Position numbers and translations under genes: made by a program
The notes under the pieces: generated by a model
The model's input: only the letters and a program-made list of their open reading frames with translations
Database searches by the model: none
Told to the model about the DNA's origin: nothing
Shown here: piece after piece, positions 1-12,862 of the stretch
Layout: the number at the start of each line of letters is the position of its first letter
Position numbering within the stretch: the first letter of the stretch is position 1
Source: Candidatus Electrothrix aestuarii
GTDB taxonomy: Bacteria > Desulfobacterota > Desulfobulbia > Desulfobulbales > Desulfobulbaceae
Direction of reading: 5' to 3'
DNA: 64,000 nt
Assembly: GCA_032595685.2 (NCBI GenBank)
Contig: CP159373.1
Span: 269,001 to 333,000, forward strand

Positions 1-628
1 GAACAGCCAGCCGCAAGAGCCAGATATACTTCCTGACCTCAGCAGGTCCAAGGGAAAGCCCCTCTGCATCTCCGGGGCTCGGTATCACCCGATCTGTCCA
101 AAGATGGTTGATATTGAGGCGATTACAGAGAAAGGATAATTTCAATATATCCTTATAATTTTTCTTCGTTGCGGTGAAGGAGACACTTGTTCTGATACCT
201 GCGGCGACCAGCTGCCTAATCCCCTGTACTGCCCTGGTAAAACTCCCCTTCCCTCGGATGAGCTCATGCTTCTCTTTGGTGCCGTCTAAGCTGATTTGCA
301 CATAGGCAGGGGGATGTTTTTTCAGGAATTGAATACGCTCGGCATCGATATAATGCCCATTGGTGAGGAGGCTATAACTTCGGATGGTTTTCTGCGCATG
401 CACCTTTTCTATCAGGGCCTCAAGGTGCGGGAACAAAAAGGGCTCGCCACCGGTGAGGGTAAGATGAAGAGGTCCCCGCGACCGGTATCTGATCCGGAAT
501 TGCTCAATCTGGGTCAGCACCTGCTCTATCTCCTCCAACGAAAGCTCGCTGGCATCCTCATAGCTCTGCTGGTAGCAATGCAGGCAGCGAAGGTTACAGC
601 GATTTGTAATATGCCATTGAAAGATCAT
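1..628 (-). CDS. Radical SAM protein, 3' end cut by window edge
   Basis: The reading frame is open from the ATG at 628 to the left edge, giving about 209 residues of the N-terminal part. Residues 11-18 hold the radical SAM cluster motif CNLRCLHC (CxxxCxxC), followed by the LTGGEPF glycine-rich SAM-binding segment near residue 58 and an ISLDG strand near 113. This is the fold of peptide-modifying or heme-d1/PQQ-type radical SAM enzymes; the C-terminal part, which would show SPASM clusters, lies outside the window, so the substrate is unknown. An in-frame stop lies six codons upstream of the ATG, which fixes the start. The gene begins 22 bases after the helicase stop on the same strand, so the two are probably cotranscribed. 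Confidence 0.85.
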   Translation of the reverse strand, partial: MIFQWHITNRCNLRCLHCYQQSYEDASELSLEEIEQVLTQIEQFRIRYRSRGPLHLTLTGGEPFLFPHLEALIEKVHAQKTIRSYSLLTNGHYIDAERIQFLKKHPPAYVQISLDGTKEKHELIRGKGSFTRAVQGIRQLVAAGIRTSVSFTATKKNYKDILKLSFLCNRLNINHLWTDRVIPSPGDAEGLSLGPAEVRKYIWLLRLAV

Positions 629-3839: not shown

Positions 3840-5016
<1,177 letters not shown>

Positions 5017-5320: not shown

Positions 5321-6631
5321 CTATTCTATCTGCTCGTAAATATACCGGAGATCCTGCAAGAGCATGCTTTCCAGGGTGGCATCAAGAAAGGGCTTTCGGC
5401 AATCGACCTGCCCCATATGTCCGTCACGCTGATAAGCCATATAGCGACAGCCACCAAAACAGAGCGGCAGGTATTTGCATTTCTGGCATTTCTCTTCTCG
5501 TTGCCAGTGCAAGAGATGGTGGGACTCCTGATAATCCTCAGTCACACCCTGCCAAACATCGCCGATTTTATACTGTTCGTGCCCCACCCAGCACACGCAT
5601 TTATAGAGGCTGCCGTCGTAATGCACCGTAAAGGCATCATCCATCTCGACAGCACAGGGTTCCGGGCCCAGTTCTCCGATGGGATAGCCCCGTTGTAAGA
5701 CCTCCTTACGTACATGAAGCGAAGCGTCACGCAGCCAGGGTTCGTTGATGGTGGCGCAGCCTCCCACGAATTCATTGCTGGTAATTTTATCCCGGACCTT
5801 CATTACGATATTAAAGCTGACCCGGTCTGTCTTATCCGGGCTGATGCCTTCCTCGGCAAGTAGATCAAGGACCGTTGCGAAATCATGGTATGTCTCGTTG
5901 GTGTAATTACCTCCCAGGCGAATATTGGTCTTGGAGCATACCTTTTTCAAATTACCTGCAATAACATCAAAGCTCCCGACACCTGACTTGAAGGGGCGGA
6001 ATTGATTATGGTTCTCCGGTGGTCCGTCGACGGTCACCTTGACACCGTCCAGGCCCCATGCATTGAGCTCATCCACCACTTTTTCCGTGAGCAGAGAACC
6101 GTTAGAAATCAGATCGAAAACAAACTCCGCTCCTCTTTCCTCAACAAAGGGTTTCAAACGCTCTGCCAGATAAATAATCCGTTTGGTATAAAGGAGCGGT
6201 TCGCCGCCGTAGATCTGTAAGATCAGCTTCTTCTTGCCGGGCTTGAAACGCTCTTTGATAAAGGCGATGAGCTGGTCTGCGGTCCGGTCATCCATCGCCT
6301 TTTCTCCTCCCTTCTGCAGCCCTTCAAAACAGTATTTGCAAGCGAAGTTGCATTCCATTCCCAGGATAAGGGCCAGGGTGAGATTGGGATTATAGCGATT
6401 AATGTCTTCCATATATCGCGCTACTTCCTGGTGTTCTGCCTCCAGGTCTTGGACGAGAAATCCCATCTCCGTGAGGGGGGCGATGTACTCGTTTTCCGTG
6501 TCCCCGTTTTGCAGGGCGGTAAAATCCTCTTCCGGTAAGAGGACAAGCGCACCGGTCTTGGTGGAAAAAAGCAGGACCTGTCCTGGGATGGAAGAATGTC
6601 GGTGGACGGTGAGGTAGGGGGTGAAATACAT
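5321..6631 (-). CDS. Radical SAM/SPASM peptide maturase
   Basis: 436 residues from the ATG at 6631. An upstream ATG at 6691 is open, but its first codons are made of the terminator hairpin at 6651-6674, so it is not used here. The N-terminal ~80 residues (YFTPYLTVHRH... LLPEEDFTAL) resemble a precursor-recognition region. The radical SAM core has CNFACKYCF (CxxxCxxC) and YGGEPLL, with SNGSLL and VTVDGP strands after it. The C-terminal SPASM region has Cys in CAVEMDDAF, CVCWVG, CQKCKYLPLCFGGC and a last Cys, enough for two auxiliary Fe-S clusters. Such enzymes install cross-links or epimerise residues in ribosomal peptides. The likely substrate is the 32-residue precursor just upstream. The layout resembles the maturases named for geopeptides, which I cannot confirm here. 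Confidence 0.9.
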   Translation of the reverse strand: MYFTPYLTVHRHSSIPGQVLLFSTKTGALVLLPEEDFTALQNGDTENEYIAPLTEMGFLVQDLEAEHQEVARYMEDINRYNPNLTLALILGMECNFACKYCFEGLQKGGEKAMDDRTADQLIAFIKERFKPGKKKLILQIYGGEPLLYTKRIIYLAERLKPFVEERGAEFVFDLISNGSLLTEKVVDELNAWGLDGVKVTVDGPPENHNQFRPFKSGVGSFDVIAGNLKKVCSKTNIRLGGNYTNETYHDFATVLDLLAEEGISPDKTDRVSFNIVMKVRDKITSNEFVGGCATINEPWLRDASLHVRKEVLQRGYPIGELGPEPCAVEMDDAFTVHYDGSLYKCVCWVGHEQYKIGDVWQGVTEDYQESHHLLHWQREEKCQKCKYLPLCFGGCRYMAYQRDGHMGQVDCRKPFLDATLESMLLQDLRYIYEQIE

Positions 6632-6650
6632 TTTTCTGACCAAAGGAAAT

Positions 6651-6674
6651 AAAAAAGGAGAGCCGAAGCTCTCC
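6651..6674 (-). terminator. UUCG hairpin with U-run between precursor and maturase
   Basis: On the minus strand GGAGAGC, loop TTCG, then GCTCTCC is followed by six T. This is a near-ideal intrinsic terminator with an extra-stable tetraloop, placed after the precursor stop and before the maturase start. Partial read-through would give much more precursor than enzyme mRNA. Confidence 0.85.
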
Positions 6675-6700
6675 TCAATAAAAAACAACAAACTAATGCG

Positions 6701-6799
6701 TTACTTGTCAGCTGAAGGCACGCTTTTACAACAAATACCCTCAGCAGCTACTGATTTAACTTTTTTTCCTTTTTTGAGAATAAGCATTTTCTTTTTCAT
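6701..6799 (-). CDS. Ribosomal peptide precursor (32 residues)
   Basis: A 32-codon gene that is easy to miss. It starts MKKKMLILKKGKKVKS, a lysine-rich leader, and ends VAAEGICCKSVPSADK, with a vicinal Cys-Cys pair at residues 23-24 in the C-terminal core. The start is set by a strong ribosome binding site, GGAGGA, 9 bases upstream. It sits directly before a radical SAM/SPASM maturase and is separated from it by a terminator hairpin, the usual layout of RiPP operons. It is inferred that the Cys pair or nearby residues are modified. Product activity and export are unknown: no peptidase or ABC exporter is adjacent, though a TonB receptor gene lies directly upstream. Confidence 0.75.
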   Translation of the reverse strand: MKKKMLILKKGKKVKSVAAEGICCKSVPSADK

Positions 6800-6885: not shown

Positions 6886-8799
6886 TTAAAATTTCACAGT
6901 AAGTCCCGCCTCTAACCAATATTCAGGGTTAGAATAGTCTCTATCAAAATACTGCTCTCCATTAAAAATATTATGTCCCTTGAGATAGATTTCGCCATTG
7001 AGTGGAGAGAAATTAACATCCTTAGCAACAAGAACGTCCCAAAGAAGGGTGCTATCTTCGGGCCGTTCGTTCTTTACGAGATCACTCATCCTGTAATAGT
7101 GACCAACAAATTGAGCCCTCACTCCATATTGAGTGTTCAGGTAGGAAAGAATCAAATTACCGGTAGAGCTCTCATCGTTTTGCCAAGTATTGGCATCAGA
7201 TATCTTATTTTTTCCTGTAATATAGGTAAAATTGGAGGTCAGGCTTAAACCATGATAGACAGCGGTCTTTACTTCAAGCTCAAGACCGTTGATACGTATA
7301 GTACCTGTGTTGACCCAAGTGATCTCATAGACATTCCAGGCATCTTCAATGTCTTGATGAAAGACAGTCCCCTTGACATGAAAAAAGGGAATATAACCGG
7401 TTTCTATTCCTGCCTGATAAGTCCAGGTGTTTTCTGGTTCGAGGTCTGGAAAAAGAGAAGAAGCCGCTAGATAAGGGGCTGAAAAGCCCTTGGCAATGGA
7501 TCCCCTGAGTAGAACATCAGCGCTCAATAGATAGGTAATACCCAAAGAAGGATTTACCGATTCTTCCGAATTGGAATGATCGTCATAGCGTAAGCCAGGG
7601 GTGACGGAAAGATTGCCTTTGCCATAGGTAACATTAGCATATACACCGTACCGATCTTCTGTTATCGGATCATCTTCTGTGGCTAATGGGCCATCAAAAA
7701 ATATCCCTAAGCGACTTGCATATTGCATTTCGCTGTGGCTCGACTCAAAACCGAGGTTGGTGGCAACGGATTCACTCGCCCAGGTGAGTCGGCCAGCAAA
7801 AGAGTTAGACTCTTCCTCCCATTCTTCTCCAAATATCATATCACCTTGAGCCCCTCCCAGCCCACTCCCCAGAGAACGTCGATCAGCGGCATAGGTATTG
7901 TCAAAATGCTGACCAGAGAGATGAAGACTGAGGTTTTGTGTTAATTCGGTATCAAAATAGAGCGTACCCCAAATGTTTTTACTTTCAACATCAGTATAGA
8001 GATTAAGATTGCTAATTCCCCAGGCATCCTCCCAGTTCAGACCCTTATAAAATGGATCACTGGAACCAGCAGTAAAGGTCAAGTGCGAACCGTGGGTCAG
8101 ATCAAACCGCATCTTACCGTAAACGGAATCTCTTTCGGCGTAGCGATCAAGGCGTAGGCCGTCTGAATCAATATTACCGCCATACAGATAATAGCTAAAA
8201 GCCTTGATCTGACCAGCCACATCAGCGGAAACATCACGACTGGCTCTCTCGCCATAACTTACATTGATATTGCCGGTTGGTCGTTCTGTTTTACCTACAT
8301 CCTTGGTGATAATATTGATCACCCCACCAAGGGCAGATCCCCAGGAGGAGGAGGCTGCTCCCTTGATGATCTCAATACGTTTGATAATTCCAATGGGTAT
8401 AAAACTAGTTAAGGCAAAGCCGCTTGAATTCTGATTCAGGCGTACTCCGTCAAGAAGCAATAAGACATGGTGTCGTCCAGTTCCCAGAAGCCGGACAGCT
8501 GCGTCTCCAAGAAAATCCTGACCAAAAAAATCAACAAACACTCCAGACTGCCGGTTGAGGACCTCAGCCAGAGTATGGGCATGCATGGCCTCAATCTCTT
8601 CAGCGGTAACGATGGTTACATTCTCCGCCACCTGACTGATGGGTTTTGGAGAGCGGGTAGCTGTTTCAACCAGCTCTTCTTCGTCAAAATAGAGTTCCAG
8701 GAGTTTTTCATCCTGATATGGAGTATTCGCCCGAGCAGATGGGGCAGTAAGAAAGGTTGCGAGGAGCAGTAGAATTGCGAGAGAATTATCACTTTTCAT
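6886..8799 (-). CDS. TonB-dependent outer membrane receptor
   Basis: 637 residues. A signal peptide (cleavage near SARA-N, residue 24) is followed by the plug domain (TATRSPKPISQVAENVTIVT, VLNRQSGVFVDFFGQ, LLLLDGVRLNQ, IKRIEIIKGAASSSWGS, GGVINIITK) and a barrel ending in the aromatic-terminated strand LEAGLTVKF. The plug resembles the BtuB/vitamin B12 and siderophore group, but the ligand cannot be read from sequence. It lies upstream of the peptide precursor in the same direction, 86 bases away, and is divergent from the binding-protein/histidine-kinase operon. A role in uptake of a ligand linked to either cluster is inference. Confidence 0.92.
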   Translation of the reverse strand: MKSDNSLAILLLLATFLTAPSARANTPYQDEKLLELYFDEEELVETATRSPKPISQVAENVTIVTAEEIEAMHAHTLAEVLNRQSGVFVDFFGQDFLGDAAVRLLGTGRHHVLLLLDGVRLNQNSSGFALTSFIPIGIIKRIEIIKGAASSSWGSALGGVINIITKDVGKTERPTGNINVSYGERASRDVSADVAGQIKAFSYYLYGGNIDSDGLRLDRYAERDSVYGKMRFDLTHGSHLTFTAGSSDPFYKGLNWEDAWGISNLNLYTDVESKNIWGTLYFDTELTQNLSLHLSGQHFDNTYAADRRSLGSGLGGAQGDMIFGEEWEEESNSFAGRLTWASESVATNLGFESSHSEMQYASRLGIFFDGPLATEDDPITEDRYGVYANVTYGKGNLSVTPGLRYDDHSNSEESVNPSLGITYLLSADVLLRGSIAKGFSAPYLAASSLFPDLEPENTWTYQAGIETGYIPFFHVKGTVFHQDIEDAWNVYEITWVNTGTIRINGLELEVKTAVYHGLSLTSNFTYITGKNKISDANTWQNDESSTGNLILSYLNTQYGVRAQFVGHYYRMSDLVKNERPEDSTLLWDVLVAKDVNFSPLNGEIYLKGHNIFNGEQYFDRDYSNPEYWLEAGLTVKF

Positions 8800-8951: not shown

Positions 8952-8971
8952 TTGTAAATATTTGTTTACAA
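8952..8971. promoter_or_regulatory. Inverted repeat TTGTAAA-N6-TTTACAA
   Basis: A perfect 7-bp inverted repeat with a 6-base spacer in the divergent region between the TonB receptor and the binding-protein operon. A TATACT box lies at 8981-8986. It is a plausible operator; no regulator gene is identified for it. Confidence 0.4.
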
Positions 8972-9045
8972 AGCTATTGATATACTCGTTACATTCGGAC
9001 AGTAAAAAGCCTTTTCTCCCAAGAGAACACACACCTTTTTTACTC

Positions 9046-9960
9046 ATGAATAAGTATCTCCTTCTTATCATTCTTTCATTTTTCAGTCTGGCAGATAAAG
9101 CCTATGGCTATGAGATAGTGATACTCAAAAATAGTACGAGCAAAATTAACCAAGATATTCAGGATGTCTTTACGAAAGAATTTAATCAGCGCACTCCTCA
9201 GGGTGGTCTCAAAACCATACAACGAAACCAAATAAAAGATATCCTCATGACCAAGGAGGAGAAAGGGAGCTACACTAGTGCAATACAAAGCTTCCATCCT
9301 GATCTGATCCTCGCCATTGGTAGCCAAGCGCTGGAAGAGGCCCTCCTCGTTCCTGATGTTCCTGTTGTTCACCTCCTCGTCGTTCATCCAGAAGACATTA
9401 TCACTGAGAGTAAGCCCGTCATAGGTGTGAGCCTTTCCATACCACCGAAAGTACAACTGGATGAAATGAGTAATAAACTCCCCAAGGTAAAACGAGTGGG
9501 GATTATCTATGACCCTGGGCAAAGCAGCGAAATGGTCGAGCAGATGAAAGCGCTCAGGCCTGATCTGGATTTCATCGCTCTGGGCACGCAAGACATATCT
9601 GTGGTTCCTGACTTGATCCATTCCTTACGTGGCAAGGTGGACCTCCTCTGGATGCTGCCTGACCTCACAGCAACCAACAAGATAACCATTCAGAGCTATG
9701 TCCTCTTCTCAGCGAGAAACAAAATTCCTCTGCTGACTTTTTCTGAGAAACTCCTTAACCAGGGAGCGACCCTCGCCATAACCTTTGCTATAGATGAGAT
9801 AGCCAAACAGGCTGCAATCTTGGCTATGGACATGCTGCTTCATCCTATCAGGAGAGAACAGACAGGTCTTGTTCCCCCTCCGGTGCATACCAAATTTAAT
9901 CCTGTCATGGCGGCAAAGTTAGGAATACCCACCCCAGAGACGAGAGGAACAGATGAATAA
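9046..9960 (+). CDS. Periplasmic ABC_sub_bind-family protein
   Basis: 304 residues from the ATG at 9046; this start gives a proper signal peptide (MNKYLLLIILSFFSLADKAYG) whereas the longer frame begins at TTG with a polar extension. The mature part has the ABC_sub_bind layout: YEIVILKNS, FHPDLILAIGSQALEEAL, VPVVHLLVVHPEDI, PKVKRVGIIYDPGQSSEMVEQM, LLWMLPDLTA, IPLLTFSEKLLNQGA. These proteins bind small ligands in the periplasm. No permease or ATPase is adjacent; the next gene, overlapping by 8 bases, is a membrane histidine kinase. The protein is therefore more likely a ligand sensor for that kinase than a transporter part. Confidence 0.88.
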   Translation: MNKYLLLIILSFFSLADKAYGYEIVILKNSTSKINQDIQDVFTKEFNQRTPQGGLKTIQRNQIKDILMTKEEKGSYTSAIQSFHPDLILAIGSQALEEALLVPDVPVVHLLVVHPEDIITESKPVIGVSLSIPPKVQLDEMSNKLPKVKRVGIIYDPGQSSEMVEQMKALRPDLDFIALGTQDISVVPDLIHSLRGKVDLLWMLPDLTATNKITIQSYVLFSARNKIPLLTFSEKLLNQGATLAITFAIDEIAKQAAILAMDMLLHPIRREQTGLVPPPVHTKFNPVMAAKLGIPTPETRGTDE

Positions 9961-11707
9961 GCCCTTTCTTCTTTTTCCGAAGAGCTTGAGCGCCAAAATA
10001 TTTTTCTTCCTGATTATATCTATGGTGTGTATTATCGCAGTGTTTAATATTATTTTAATCGATATCCAAAAAAGGACGTATAAATCTTCCCACGATGCAC
10101 ATGGGGCTACCCTTATGCGCCTGCTTGTCCACTCGGTCACTCTGCCCGTTATTACTGAAAGAAAAGCTGATATATCTGCTTCTGTATCGGGGCTGCTACA
10201 GCAGGATGATGTGCTTGAGGTGGTTATTTGGAATAAAGAGGGACAAGTACTCCTGCAAGAAACAAAAGATCCAAAAGCCCCAAAAAGCATCACAAAAAGC
10301 GCTCTGGAAATAGAAAAGTCTTTTCACAAACTGCATGCGAAAGGCCAGCAGAGCATGGAAAAAGAGGATAGCTTTATTTTATGGGGGCCGGTTTTTTTAA
10401 ATGCACATCAAACCACAGAAGAATATTGGTATTTTGAAGAAGAGAATAAGAGCTCAGATAAAGAATTTGTTGGCTCTGCGGCAATTGTTCTGTCGAAAAA
10501 ATTCTTTGACAAAGGCATGCATAATATTCTTGTGCAAACAGGAACCTCGGCCCTTATCGTTCTTGCCATCATCGTATTGACAACATTTCTCATTATCCAA
10601 AATGTAACGGAACCATTACGGGAATTAATCCTGACTATAAGGGCGCGAGAAGGAAGAAACGACCAGCCCAGTGATTTGAAGATGTTGACCGAAACCTATA
10701 CCAACATGCTTGAGGATCTGGAGCAGTCTTTTCAAACCATTAGCGAATTAAACGAAGGACTTGAAGAGCAAGTAAACATCCGAACAGCCCAGCTCACCGA
10801 GGCAAATAAGGAACTCCATCAGAAACAACAAAAACTTGAGCGCAGTAATACGGATCTGGTCGAGGCACTGAATCGCTTAAAAGAAACCCAGGAGCAACTC
10901 ATCCAGAAAGAAAAACTTGCAGCTATAGGACAGCTTGTGGCTGGAGTGGCACATGAACTGAACAATACAGTGAATTTTATTTCCGGTGCTTTCCCTTCTT
11001 TGCAACGTTCTCTAGCAGAAATGAAAGAAGTCCTTGCCGGATATGAAGCAGTCGAAGAAGCAAGAGGAACCAATCTACTGGAAAAAAAATTTGAGGAGGT
11101 AGAAAGTACAAAAGAAAAACTTGCTTATGAGGAGCTGCTGCTTACCATTGATCAACTGATGGAAAATATAGAAGAAGGAACCACACGTACAACGCGTATC
11201 GTTCGCGATCTTAAAATCTTTTCCCGAGAAGATGCGGAAAAGATTATGCCGATTGATCTGCACACAATTATTGATTCCACGCTTAATTATATTGATAAAC
11301 AATCATTACAGGATATAACTATTCATCGTACCTACGGCTCTTTGCCGCTCGTTCATTGCCTGCCCGGACGAATAGGCCAGGTATTTCTCAATATCATAAA
11401 TAACGGCATTCAGGCTATGGACGGAACAGGGCAATTGACGATTAGGACGGAGCAGAGAAATGAACAGATTCATGTGATTTTTTCCGACACGGGCTGCGGC
11501 ATTCATGCAGAGGACGTAGCAAATATTTTTGATCCTTTTTTTACCACCAAGGAAGTTGGCTTAGGAACCGGGCTTGGGCTTGGGATATCGTACTCAATCA
11601 TCAAACAACATGGTGGCGATATCAAAGTACGGAGCGTTGTTGGCAAGGGATCGACATTTGAAATTATTTTACCAATAAATCCCAGAGAACTCTCTCAAGA
11701 TGCATAA
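9953..11707 (+). CDS. Membrane sensor histidine kinase
   Basis: 584 residues. Transmembrane helices at about 14-36 and 195-220 enclose a periplasmic sensor domain of about 155 residues. After the second helix come a HAMP-like linker and a long coiled coil (about 255-325). The HisKA domain has AAIGQLVAGVAHELNNTVNF with the phospho-acceptor His at 334. The ATPase domain has NIINNGIQAMDGTG, FSDTGCGIH, DPFFTTKE and GTGLGLGISYSIIKQHGG. The gene overlaps the binding-protein gene by 8 bases (translational coupling), so a periplasmic ligand complex probably drives it. The adjacent REC-kinase hybrid is the likely next element. Confidence 0.93.
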   Translation: MNKPFLLFPKSLSAKIFFFLIISMVCIIAVFNIILIDIQKRTYKSSHDAHGATLMRLLVHSVTLPVITERKADISASVSGLLQQDDVLEVVIWNKEGQVLLQETKDPKAPKSITKSALEIEKSFHKLHAKGQQSMEKEDSFILWGPVFLNAHQTTEEYWYFEEENKSSDKEFVGSAAIVLSKKFFDKGMHNILVQTGTSALIVLAIIVLTTFLIIQNVTEPLRELILTIRAREGRNDQPSDLKMLTETYTNMLEDLEQSFQTISELNEGLEEQVNIRTAQLTEANKELHQKQQKLERSNTDLVEALNRLKETQEQLIQKEKLAAIGQLVAGVAHELNNTVNFISGAFPSLQRSLAEMKEVLAGYEAVEEARGTNLLEKKFEEVESTKEKLAYEELLLTIDQLMENIEEGTTRTTRIVRDLKIFSREDAEKIMPIDLHTIIDSTLNYIDKQSLQDITIHRTYGSLPLVHCLPGRIGQVFLNIINNGIQAMDGTGQLTIRTEQRNEQIHVIFSDTGCGIHAEDVANIFDPFFTTKEVGLGTGLGLGISYSIIKQHGGDIKVRSVVGKGSTFEIILPINPRELSQDA

Positions 11708-11788: not shown

Positions 11789-12862
11789 TTGACAAAACTC
11801 AAGCTGCTGTATGTTGACGATGAACGGGTCAACCTAACGAATTTTACAATTGCTTTTAAAAAAAAATACCAGATATATACAGCGAACTCCGGCCCGGAAG
11901 CACTGAAGATTTTTCAGGAGAATGACGATATCGCCATTGTTGTCACGGACCAACGTATGCCCGGCATGACAGGCGTTGAGTTACTGCAACATATTAAAGA
12001 ACATAATGAGGATGCTATCCGGATTATCTTAACAGCCTATACGGATGCTACGGATATAATTGACTCAATCAATAAGGGGCATATTTACCAGTACATCGTC
12101 AAACCTTGGGTGGAGAATGAAATATTACAGGTGCTTGACAAGGCCGGTGAAATTTTTCTCCTTGTCCGTGAAAATAAACGCCTTGTAAAAGAATTACAGC
12201 GCCTCTCTGCCCGGCTTATCGATGCCCAGGAAAATGAAAGAAAGCGTATTGCAATGGAACTGCATGATGATATTGGGCAAAACCTTATAGCATTGAAAAT
12301 GCAATTCAATAATTTTTGTTTTCAGCTTGAATCAAGCGACAAGGAAGAGATACAGGAAACAGCCACTATTATCAGTAGCACCTTGCAAAGAACCCTGGAA
12401 AGCACCAGATGTATTTGCCAGAATCTCTGGCCACTGGTTGTTGAAAAATTCGGCTGTGACCTGGCCCTGAAGGAATTGCTGGATAACTTCAGCCGAGATT
12501 ACAGTATAGAAGTTATTTCAGGCGGTATTCAAATTCAGCAGTACTTCTCAAAACACGATCAATACCAAATCTATCGAATACTACAAGAAATATTAAACAA
12601 TATCGGAAAACATTCTGGAACGAAAAAGATCAAGATTCAGGCGACCTGCAACGAGGACTCCCTGTGTATTGAAATCGCCGACTTTGGCTGTGGTTTTGAC
12701 CCACCGGATCTGGCTGGCAATCAGGAGAAAAAAGGCTGCTTGGGCTTAACGACCATCCGGGAAAGAGCAACTATCCTCGGGGGCAGCATTGATATCCAGA
12801 GTTGCCGAGAAAAAGGAACGCAATGCATCTTGGTATTACCTCACTCCGGTGCTCTTTACTAA
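11789..12862 (+). CDS. Response regulator receiver fused to HisKA_3-type kinase
   Basis: 357 residues starting with TTG, supported by the AGGAGAGG site a few bases upstream. The receiver domain (1-125) has LYVDDE, the phosphorylatable Asp at 54 in VVTDQRMPG, LTAY and VKPW. It is followed by a NarL-class dimerisation helix, RIAMELHDDIGQNL with His at 159, and an ATPase domain with EILNNIGKHS, IADFGCGFD and GLTTIRERA. There is no DNA-binding domain, so it passes phosphate to another regulator outside the window. The receiver likely takes phosphate from the preceding kinase. Confidence 0.92.
   Translation: MTKLKLLYVDDERVNLTNFTIAFKKKYQIYTANSGPEALKIFQENDDIAIVVTDQRMPGMTGVELLQHIKEHNEDAIRIILTAYTDATDIIDSINKGHIYQYIVKPWVENEILQVLDKAGEIFLLVRENKRLVKELQRLSARLIDAQENERKRIAMELHDDIGQNLIALKMQFNNFCFQLESSDKEEIQETATIISSTLQRTLESTRCICQNLWPLVVEKFGCDLALKELLDNFSRDYSIEVISGGIQIQQYFSKHDQYQIYRILQEILNNIGKHSGTKKIKIQATCNEDSLCIEIADFGCGFDPPDLAGNQEKKGCLGLTTIRERATILGGSIDIQSCREKGTQCILVLPHSGALY

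Follow-up and report, generated by a model that had tools for sequence, protein, structure and literature searches.

The window, by which we mean the whole 64,000-nucleotide stretch of Candidatus Electrothrix aestuarii DNA analysed here, carries a compact locus in which the gene for a short peptide with two adjacent cysteines is followed, beyond a terminator-like hairpin, by the gene for a radical SAM/SPASM enzyme. Upstream of the peptide lie genes for a TonB-dependent receptor and, on the opposite strand, for a binding protein, a histidine kinase and a receiver/kinase protein (Table 1). The initial annotation had described a strong ribosome-binding site opening a 32-codon gene ahead of the enzyme, and this description was confirmed: a GGAGG site lies approximately 9 nt 5′ of the ATG of the peptide gene.

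Table 1. Features of the peptide-maturase locus, with positions counted from the first letter of the window.
Feature	Position	Strand	Remarks
Radical SAM/SPASM maturase, 436 aa	5321..6631	(-)	Putative N-terminal RRE-like (leader-binding) region; two-auxiliary-cluster Cys set; conserved ATG start
Terminator-like hairpin, AGGAGAGC-TTCG-GCTCTCCT, T-rich tail	6647..6675	(-)	Between peptide and maturase
Precursor peptide gene, 32 aa, MKKKMLILKKGKKVKSVAAEGICCKSVPSADK	6701..6799	(-)	Leader, Cys23-Cys24, 8-residue tail
TonB-dependent receptor	6886..8799	(-)	On the peptide's strand, 86 nt upstream of the peptide; conserved locus member
PF04392 periplasmic-type binding protein	8962..9960	(+)	Divergent from the TonB gene
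Histidine kinase gene	9953..11707	(+)	8-nt overlap with the binding-protein gene
Receiver + HisKA_3/HATPase protein	11789..12862	(+)	Often the third gene of the divergent arm

The leader of the window peptide is rich in Lys. No NCBIfam model matched the peptide, and its only Pfam match (E 0.12) fell under the cut-off. Compared with the TIGR04229 'geopeptide' model (cut-off 30 bits), it failed membership and gave no match even at E 10. Within this genome we found one real peptide and one maturase over the cut-off, the other peptide match (E 1.12) containing an internal stop. Pairwise comparison of five same-genus peptides gave dN of 0.10–0.29 and dS of 0.45–1.88 (dS is unusable for all five pairs that include L103), and this excess of dS over dN argues for constraint on the protein. 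Among six close relatives, L103 included, nonsynonymous and synonymous codon differences stood at 55:48 in the core and 91:80 in the leader. The protein sequence of the peptide is under constraint, with the core no more constrained than the leader at this six-relative range. The 32-residue, two-Cys peptide is a real, unannotated gene.

The longest radical SAM frame (5321–6691, minus strand) begins at a TTG and would cross the hairpin. The methionine encoded by the ATG at 6631 is invariant across 48 aligned homologues, which makes this ATG, rather than the TTG of the longer frame, the likely start. The enzyme carries a CxxxCxxC motif (C94, C98 and C101) and seven further cysteines (C326, C345, C382, C385, C391, C395 and C411), a pattern that we take to be that of a radical SAM cluster and a two-cluster SPASM domain. 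All ten are invariant in 48 of 48 close homologues, bearing out the two-auxiliary-cluster Cys count that had been proposed for the enzyme, and in 50 of 50 wider ones (an alignment of 50 of the 75 available rows, with the L129 row shortened); C292 approaches invariance in the close set alone. The maturase passes the NCBIfam model TIGR04280, 'geopeptide radical SAM maturase', at 475.2 bits (cut-off 400), and the next models all score under their own cut-offs (CefB, 181; TIGR04463, 168; Clo7bot, 139; PapB, 134 bits). SPASM membership follows from TIGR04085 (56.9 bits, cut-off 27); in Pfam, Radical_SAM is over its cut-off and SPASM PF13186 is below (15.1 against 21.5). TIGR04280 is also passed by the maturases of loci L138, L132, L134, L136, L145 and L125, and not by those of the remoter L146 and L147; a maturase over its cut-off is present in 61 of 257 Desulfobulbia genomes. 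The 124 plasmid records that matched the enzyme all did so at less than 60% identity, the best rows reaching 28%. At L129 (5019–7097), the maturase ORF has a C-terminal extension of approximately 250 residues that matches no other ORF of the neighbourhoods compared.

To follow the peptide across relatives, we collected 86 distinct maturase loci, duplicates removed, comprising the Desulfobulbia loci and 27 from wider genome contigs (L119–L145, the first 27 of at least 80 loci in that scan to enter the locus counts). Five with no more than 40 nt of contig upstream were excluded (L068, L141, L142, L143 and L144). The initial annotation had proposed a RiPP precursor/SPASM maturase pair and had named the DNA upstream of homologous maturases as the place to look for its failure; a homologous peptide lies there in 80 of the 81 usable loci, which supports the pairing. 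These precursor-bearing loci include Desulfobulbaceae, Desulfurivibrionaceae, Desulfobacteraceae, Desulfuromonadales and Nitrospirae. The profile search recovered 78 precursors, with E-values of 5e-4 to 5e-16 (one match in L112, at -242 and E 3.2e-6, is a spurious frame), and those of L134 and L145 were recognised by eye. Beyond the proximal 700 nt, 38,161 frames of the same loci yielded no profile match below E 0.05 other than precursors of these systems. At the one locus without a peptide, L125, the contig stops within an MFS-like gene that is 43% identical to one lying between peptide and maturase in L070 and L121, so the peptide may be off the contig.

The second Cys is present in 80 of 80 peptides (counted without gaps) and is their sole invariant residue; we found no invariant candidate acceptor side chain. 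The first Cys occurs in 78, being replaced by Gly in L089 and by Asn in L090. The 69 profile seeds were picked for the Cys-Cys pair, which makes its conservation partly a matter of construction; the single-Cys L089 and L090 were not among the seeds. Other positions are frequent and variable: Val/Ile at -17 (74 of 80), Leu at -16 (53), Gly at -13 (53), Val at -7 (44), Ala at -6 (61) and Pro at +4 (48). A hydrophobic leader motif, IVL-xx-G, is widespread 13–19 residues before the Cys, and 35 of the 80 peptides, that of the window included, end exactly 8 residues past the second Cys. The second Cys and the leader motif are the conserved elements, and the GICC core of the initial annotation is not one of them, since the residues preceding the Cys pair differ among the 80 peptides. 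Peptide starts were chosen by script, and the rows of L121 and L086 run too far at the N-terminus and carry the extra Cys. Upstream of the L134 maturase (approximately 50–290 nt), a long histone-H1-like Lys/Ala repeat leader precedes GAACCMGKPYVLK. At L081, two tandem receptor-peptide-maturase systems occur in one genome; their peptides differ and their maturases are 72% and 49% identical to that of the window.

The likeness to the geopeptide system is one of enzyme and layout. The window maturase passes TIGR04280, and the window peptide shares a V-L-x-x-G then Cys-Cys arrangement with the L138 peptide, a TIGR04229 member at 32.7 bits that differs little from the Desulfuromonadaceae L139 peptide. 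The window peptide departs from it in its Lys-rich leader and in giving no TIGR04229 match. This model reaches few precursors: 6 of 30 scanned touched it at E 10 or better, and, in ten scanned singly, L138 passed, L072 failed (18.8 bits) and eight gave no match. None of the 257 Desulfobulbia genomes has a TIGR04229 match over the cut-off; 139 have one at E 1, and among the matches listed only G165 C44 and G252 C12 lie at maturase loci. On these sequence comparisons, the window peptide is not filed as TIGR04229, its kinship resting on position, profile and an 80-peptide series that includes L138. By the same comparisons, the locus classes as a geopeptide-type system, with a maturase that is a family member and a precursor outside the present precursor model. 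The initial annotation had called product and activity unknown; the kind of system, at least, can now be named, and a thioether is the likeliest modification.

The hairpin between peptide and maturase recurs. Searching for exact stems with a required T-rich tail, we found one in 42 of 70 spacers of 30–140 nt, with stems of at least 7 in 37; 50 dinucleotide shuffles gave a mean of 2.3 hairpins and a maximum of 6. Its simplest meaning is more peptide than enzyme. Four spacers are long (954 nt in L069, 1610 in L070, 1755 in L121 and 731 in L145); the peptide is kept in all four, and its place beside the TonB gene is kept in L069, L121 and L145, the L070 contig being too short to show it. In L005/L069, an apparent antitoxin/PIN-toxin pair (identified by eye) separates precursor from maturase. 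In L145, a SAM-methyltransferase-like gene (by eye) follows the precursor, 23–662 nt upstream of the maturase, a possible source of extra tailoring.

Short ORFs are common in any stretch of DNA, and a random one might simply happen to precede a radical SAM gene. The presence of the peptide in 80 of 81 loci and the specificity of the profile reduce the probability of such a chance pairing to almost nothing, and we rejected it. A regulatory role for the ORF is better founded, in that Cys-Cys codons, the terminator-like hairpin found in so many spacers and the gene of an Fe-S enzyme follow one another, as they would for a leader peptide at which ribosome stalling on the two Cys codons decides termination before the enzyme gene. 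We nevertheless consider this account improbable and rejected it, chiefly on the ground that the peptide persists where 0.7–1.8 kb with other genes lie between it and the enzyme (L069, L070, L121 and L145). Two members have a single Cys, the hydrophobic-Gly motif before the Cys and the excess of dS over dN speak for the peptide itself, and the enzyme, with a predicted RRE-like region at its N-terminus, comes from a family of peptide maturases.

An AlphaFold2 model of the maturase, built with 50 sequences, reached a pLDDT of 93.7 and a pTM of 0.92. Its top Foldseek match is CteB (5why, E 1.1e-21), and CteB is also the best structure match by sequence (5wgg, E 6.1e-19, residues 69–264). VIA-align superimposed the model on 5why over 382 residues (Z 29.1, rmsd 4.3, model residues 4–429) and on the sulfatase-maturing enzyme 4k38 over 332 residues without the N-terminus (Z 28.4, residues 82–435), which by Z ties with CteB; ChlB (Z 27.3) and TigE (8vpo, Z 24.8, 381 residues, 1–433) follow, TigE covering the N-terminal region. 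The full-length alignments begin at residue 4 (CteB) and residue 1 (TigE) of the model, whose N-terminal elements run, in order, E7-11, E18-23, E29-33, H34-41, H50-55 and H63-71. According to PMC8326336, an RRE is a winged helix built from three strands and three helices, a description that this order of elements fits; in CteB the N-terminal RRE holds the leader as a strand, an open iron on one auxiliary cluster is within reach of a peptide Cys, and the product is described with a Cys32-Thr34 gamma-carbon thioether. The predicted fold of the maturase is CteB-like, with a putative N-terminal leader-binding domain; a fold alone does not fix function.

The modeled full-length match to CteB, N-terminal region and SPASM domain included, places the maturase near the ranthipeptide synthases CteB (SCIFF/thermocellin) and PapB (freyrasin), and the corresponding models TIGR03974 and NF047865 are among its NCBIfam neighbours. 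However, it scores far under their cut-offs (102.1 of 425 and 134 of 340 bits, respectively). Moreover, the window precursor has 2 Cys in 32 residues, compared with six in about 45 for SCIFF, and falls outside SCIFF membership, and it lacks a repeated Cys-Asp pattern. The mark of a ranthipeptide is a thioether from the Cys sulfur to a non-alpha carbon, which in the window system is predicted by analogy.

The receptor gene is as regular a companion as the peptide. Of the 79 loci with at least 500 nt of upstream DNA, 76 have a TonB receptor gene no more than 4.5 kb upstream, 71 of them on the same strand (73 by ORF, 68 of them same-strand, and L112, L034 and L043 by tblastn). The three remaining loci are L070 and L125, which are on short contigs, and L136, which has TonB pieces downstream. 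In L137–L140 and L145 the gene is on the opposite strand, unlike the same-strand gene of the window. Upstream sequence reaches 6 kb or more in 54 loci, and in these a PF04392-like binding protein and a histidine kinase each occur upstream in 47, often with the receiver/kinase gene; in L133, binding protein and kinase are downstream instead. We identified these partners by BLAST against the proteins of the window, which favours grouping, and kinases are common proteins. In the window, no permease gene lies between the overlapping binding-protein/kinase pair and the receiver/kinase gene; with the 8-nt overlap, this is what a binding protein serving in sensing, not in transport, would be expected to show. 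A branch with support 100 sets the 64 locus receptors, together with 4 second receptors of these loci, apart from the 9 other TonB genes of this genome (a quick-method tree with long branches among the 9 outsiders). The second receptors, of the same lineage, lie upstream of the first in L118, L074, L091 and L078, where the profile found no precursor of their own. When 1025 neighbour ORFs of at least 60 aa were clustered, no conserved exporter or peptidase emerged. Past the maturase, TonB, kinase and binding-protein groups, the most widespread cluster reaches 12 loci (judged ABC-ATPase-like by eye, in scattered positions) and the next 9; MFS-like genes, named by eye from BLAST with two representatives, occur in at least 8 of 86 loci, that of L094 at only 25% identity.

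Two described systems resemble parts of this arrangement. The Itf cluster of Bacteroides thetaiotaomicron likewise encodes a radical SAM RiPP maturase with a TonB-dependent transporter, and PMC11002830 gives as its own features a YcaO protein, an ABC transporter/C39 peptidase and a C-C crosslink; the clustering of neighbours brought up no partner of the Itf type among those conserved at the present loci. PqqU, the TonB-dependent importer of PQQ, is a TonB receptor for a small molecule of ribosomal-peptide origin (PMC12124388), PQQ being derived from a ribosomal peptide (PMC8326336). PqqU is, however, a different receptor, the relevant model NF041535 scoring only 24.7 bits against a cut-off of 1200.

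The reading that best fits these observations, to which we assign a probability of roughly 0.78, is that of a RiPP precursor and its CteB-like maturase linked to a receptor/sensor module, in which the maturase probably modifies the adjoining peptide. In this scheme, a TonB-receptor/peptide/enzyme transcript would be thinned by the hairpin after the peptide, leaving more peptide than enzyme. By analogy with CteB, a hydrophobic leader strand (MLIL in the window, generally IVL-xx-G) would dock on the RRE-like region of the enzyme, and the thiolate of Cys24, the invariant second Cys, may be positioned at or close to the open iron of one of the auxiliary clusters, as the fold and Cys pattern suggest. 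A 5′-deoxyadenosyl radical would then make a Cys-centred bond, for which, on the CteB precedent, we rate a thioether slightly above an even chance. Leader removal and product export, the weakest step, would fall to factors outside the conserved locus. The receptor and sensor beside the pair suggest that the finished peptide is released, re-imported and sensed: the TonB receptor could take up the product or its metal complex, and the PF04392 protein could present it to the overlapping histidine kinase, which would control the locus. This return path is read from gene order, and we place it somewhat below even odds.

Both ends of this scheme have competitors. The same pair might yield an alpha-carbon sactionine, a heterocycle formed from Cys (a thiooxazole, for example) or some other Cys-centred change instead of a non-alpha thioether, an outcome that we place a little below even odds: Cys alone is conserved in the peptides while the acceptor is not, the fold also matches the sulfatase-maturing enzyme, ChlB and TigE, and SbtM, a radical SAM/SPASM enzyme, makes a thiooxazole (PMC11002830). 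What tilts the balance toward a thioether is that CteB comes first in Foldseek, that CteB and TigE span the whole length with the N-terminal region, and that the PapB and SCIFF thioether maturases are among the NCBIfam neighbours, though CefB, TIGR04463 and Clo7bot outscore them. The receptor, binding protein and kinase, for their part, could be an older metal or cofactor uptake module whose ligand switches on the pair, with the product acting inside the cell rather than as receptor ligand. PF04392 is common (200 of 257 Desulfobulbia genomes) and a further PF04392-TonB pair, distant and with no maturase, occurs in this genome, so the module may serve another ligand; the second TonB genes of L118, L074, L078 and L091 lack a precursor of their own by the profile, and among solved structures the receptors for vitamin B12, colicin I and enterobactin come closest to the receptor, over its plug region. 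We regard an independent uptake module as conceivable and somewhat doubtful, since the pair-adjoining receptors form one group apart from the genome's others and the link outlasts rearrangement, with the TonB strand flipped in five loci and the sensor genes moved downstream in L133.

Returning to the precursor-maturase reading with re-uptake, its broadest form would make geopeptides secreted, Cys-centred ribosomal metallophores or autoinducers, made by the maturase, re-imported by a dedicated TonB lineage and sensed by the binding protein and kinase; we offer this tentatively and with low confidence. If true, it would describe a RiPP acting through a Gram-negative uptake-and-sensing circuit common to several anaerobic lineages. 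We found no account of geopeptide, TIGR04280 or TIGR04229 in the open-licence literature searched. New here are the link to TonB receptor, binding protein and kinase and the recognition of one invariant Cys. The precursor set now extends well past the reach of the current model, with one Cys marked as the key residue, and the receptor and sensor beside the pair provide a functional lead for geopeptides, here so far a family name.

Several neighbouring features of the window deserve mention. An IS110/IS116-type transposase occupies 4045–5016 on the plus strand, approximately 300 bases from the 3′ end of the maturase gene. Another radical SAM protein, of 342 aa with the motif CNLRCLHCY, lies at 1–628 (minus strand) of the window and at 10601–11629 of L200; its TIGR04280 match is weak (41.8 bits), and it is not a geopeptide maturase. 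Downstream of it, on the same strand, are three small membrane-like ORFs.
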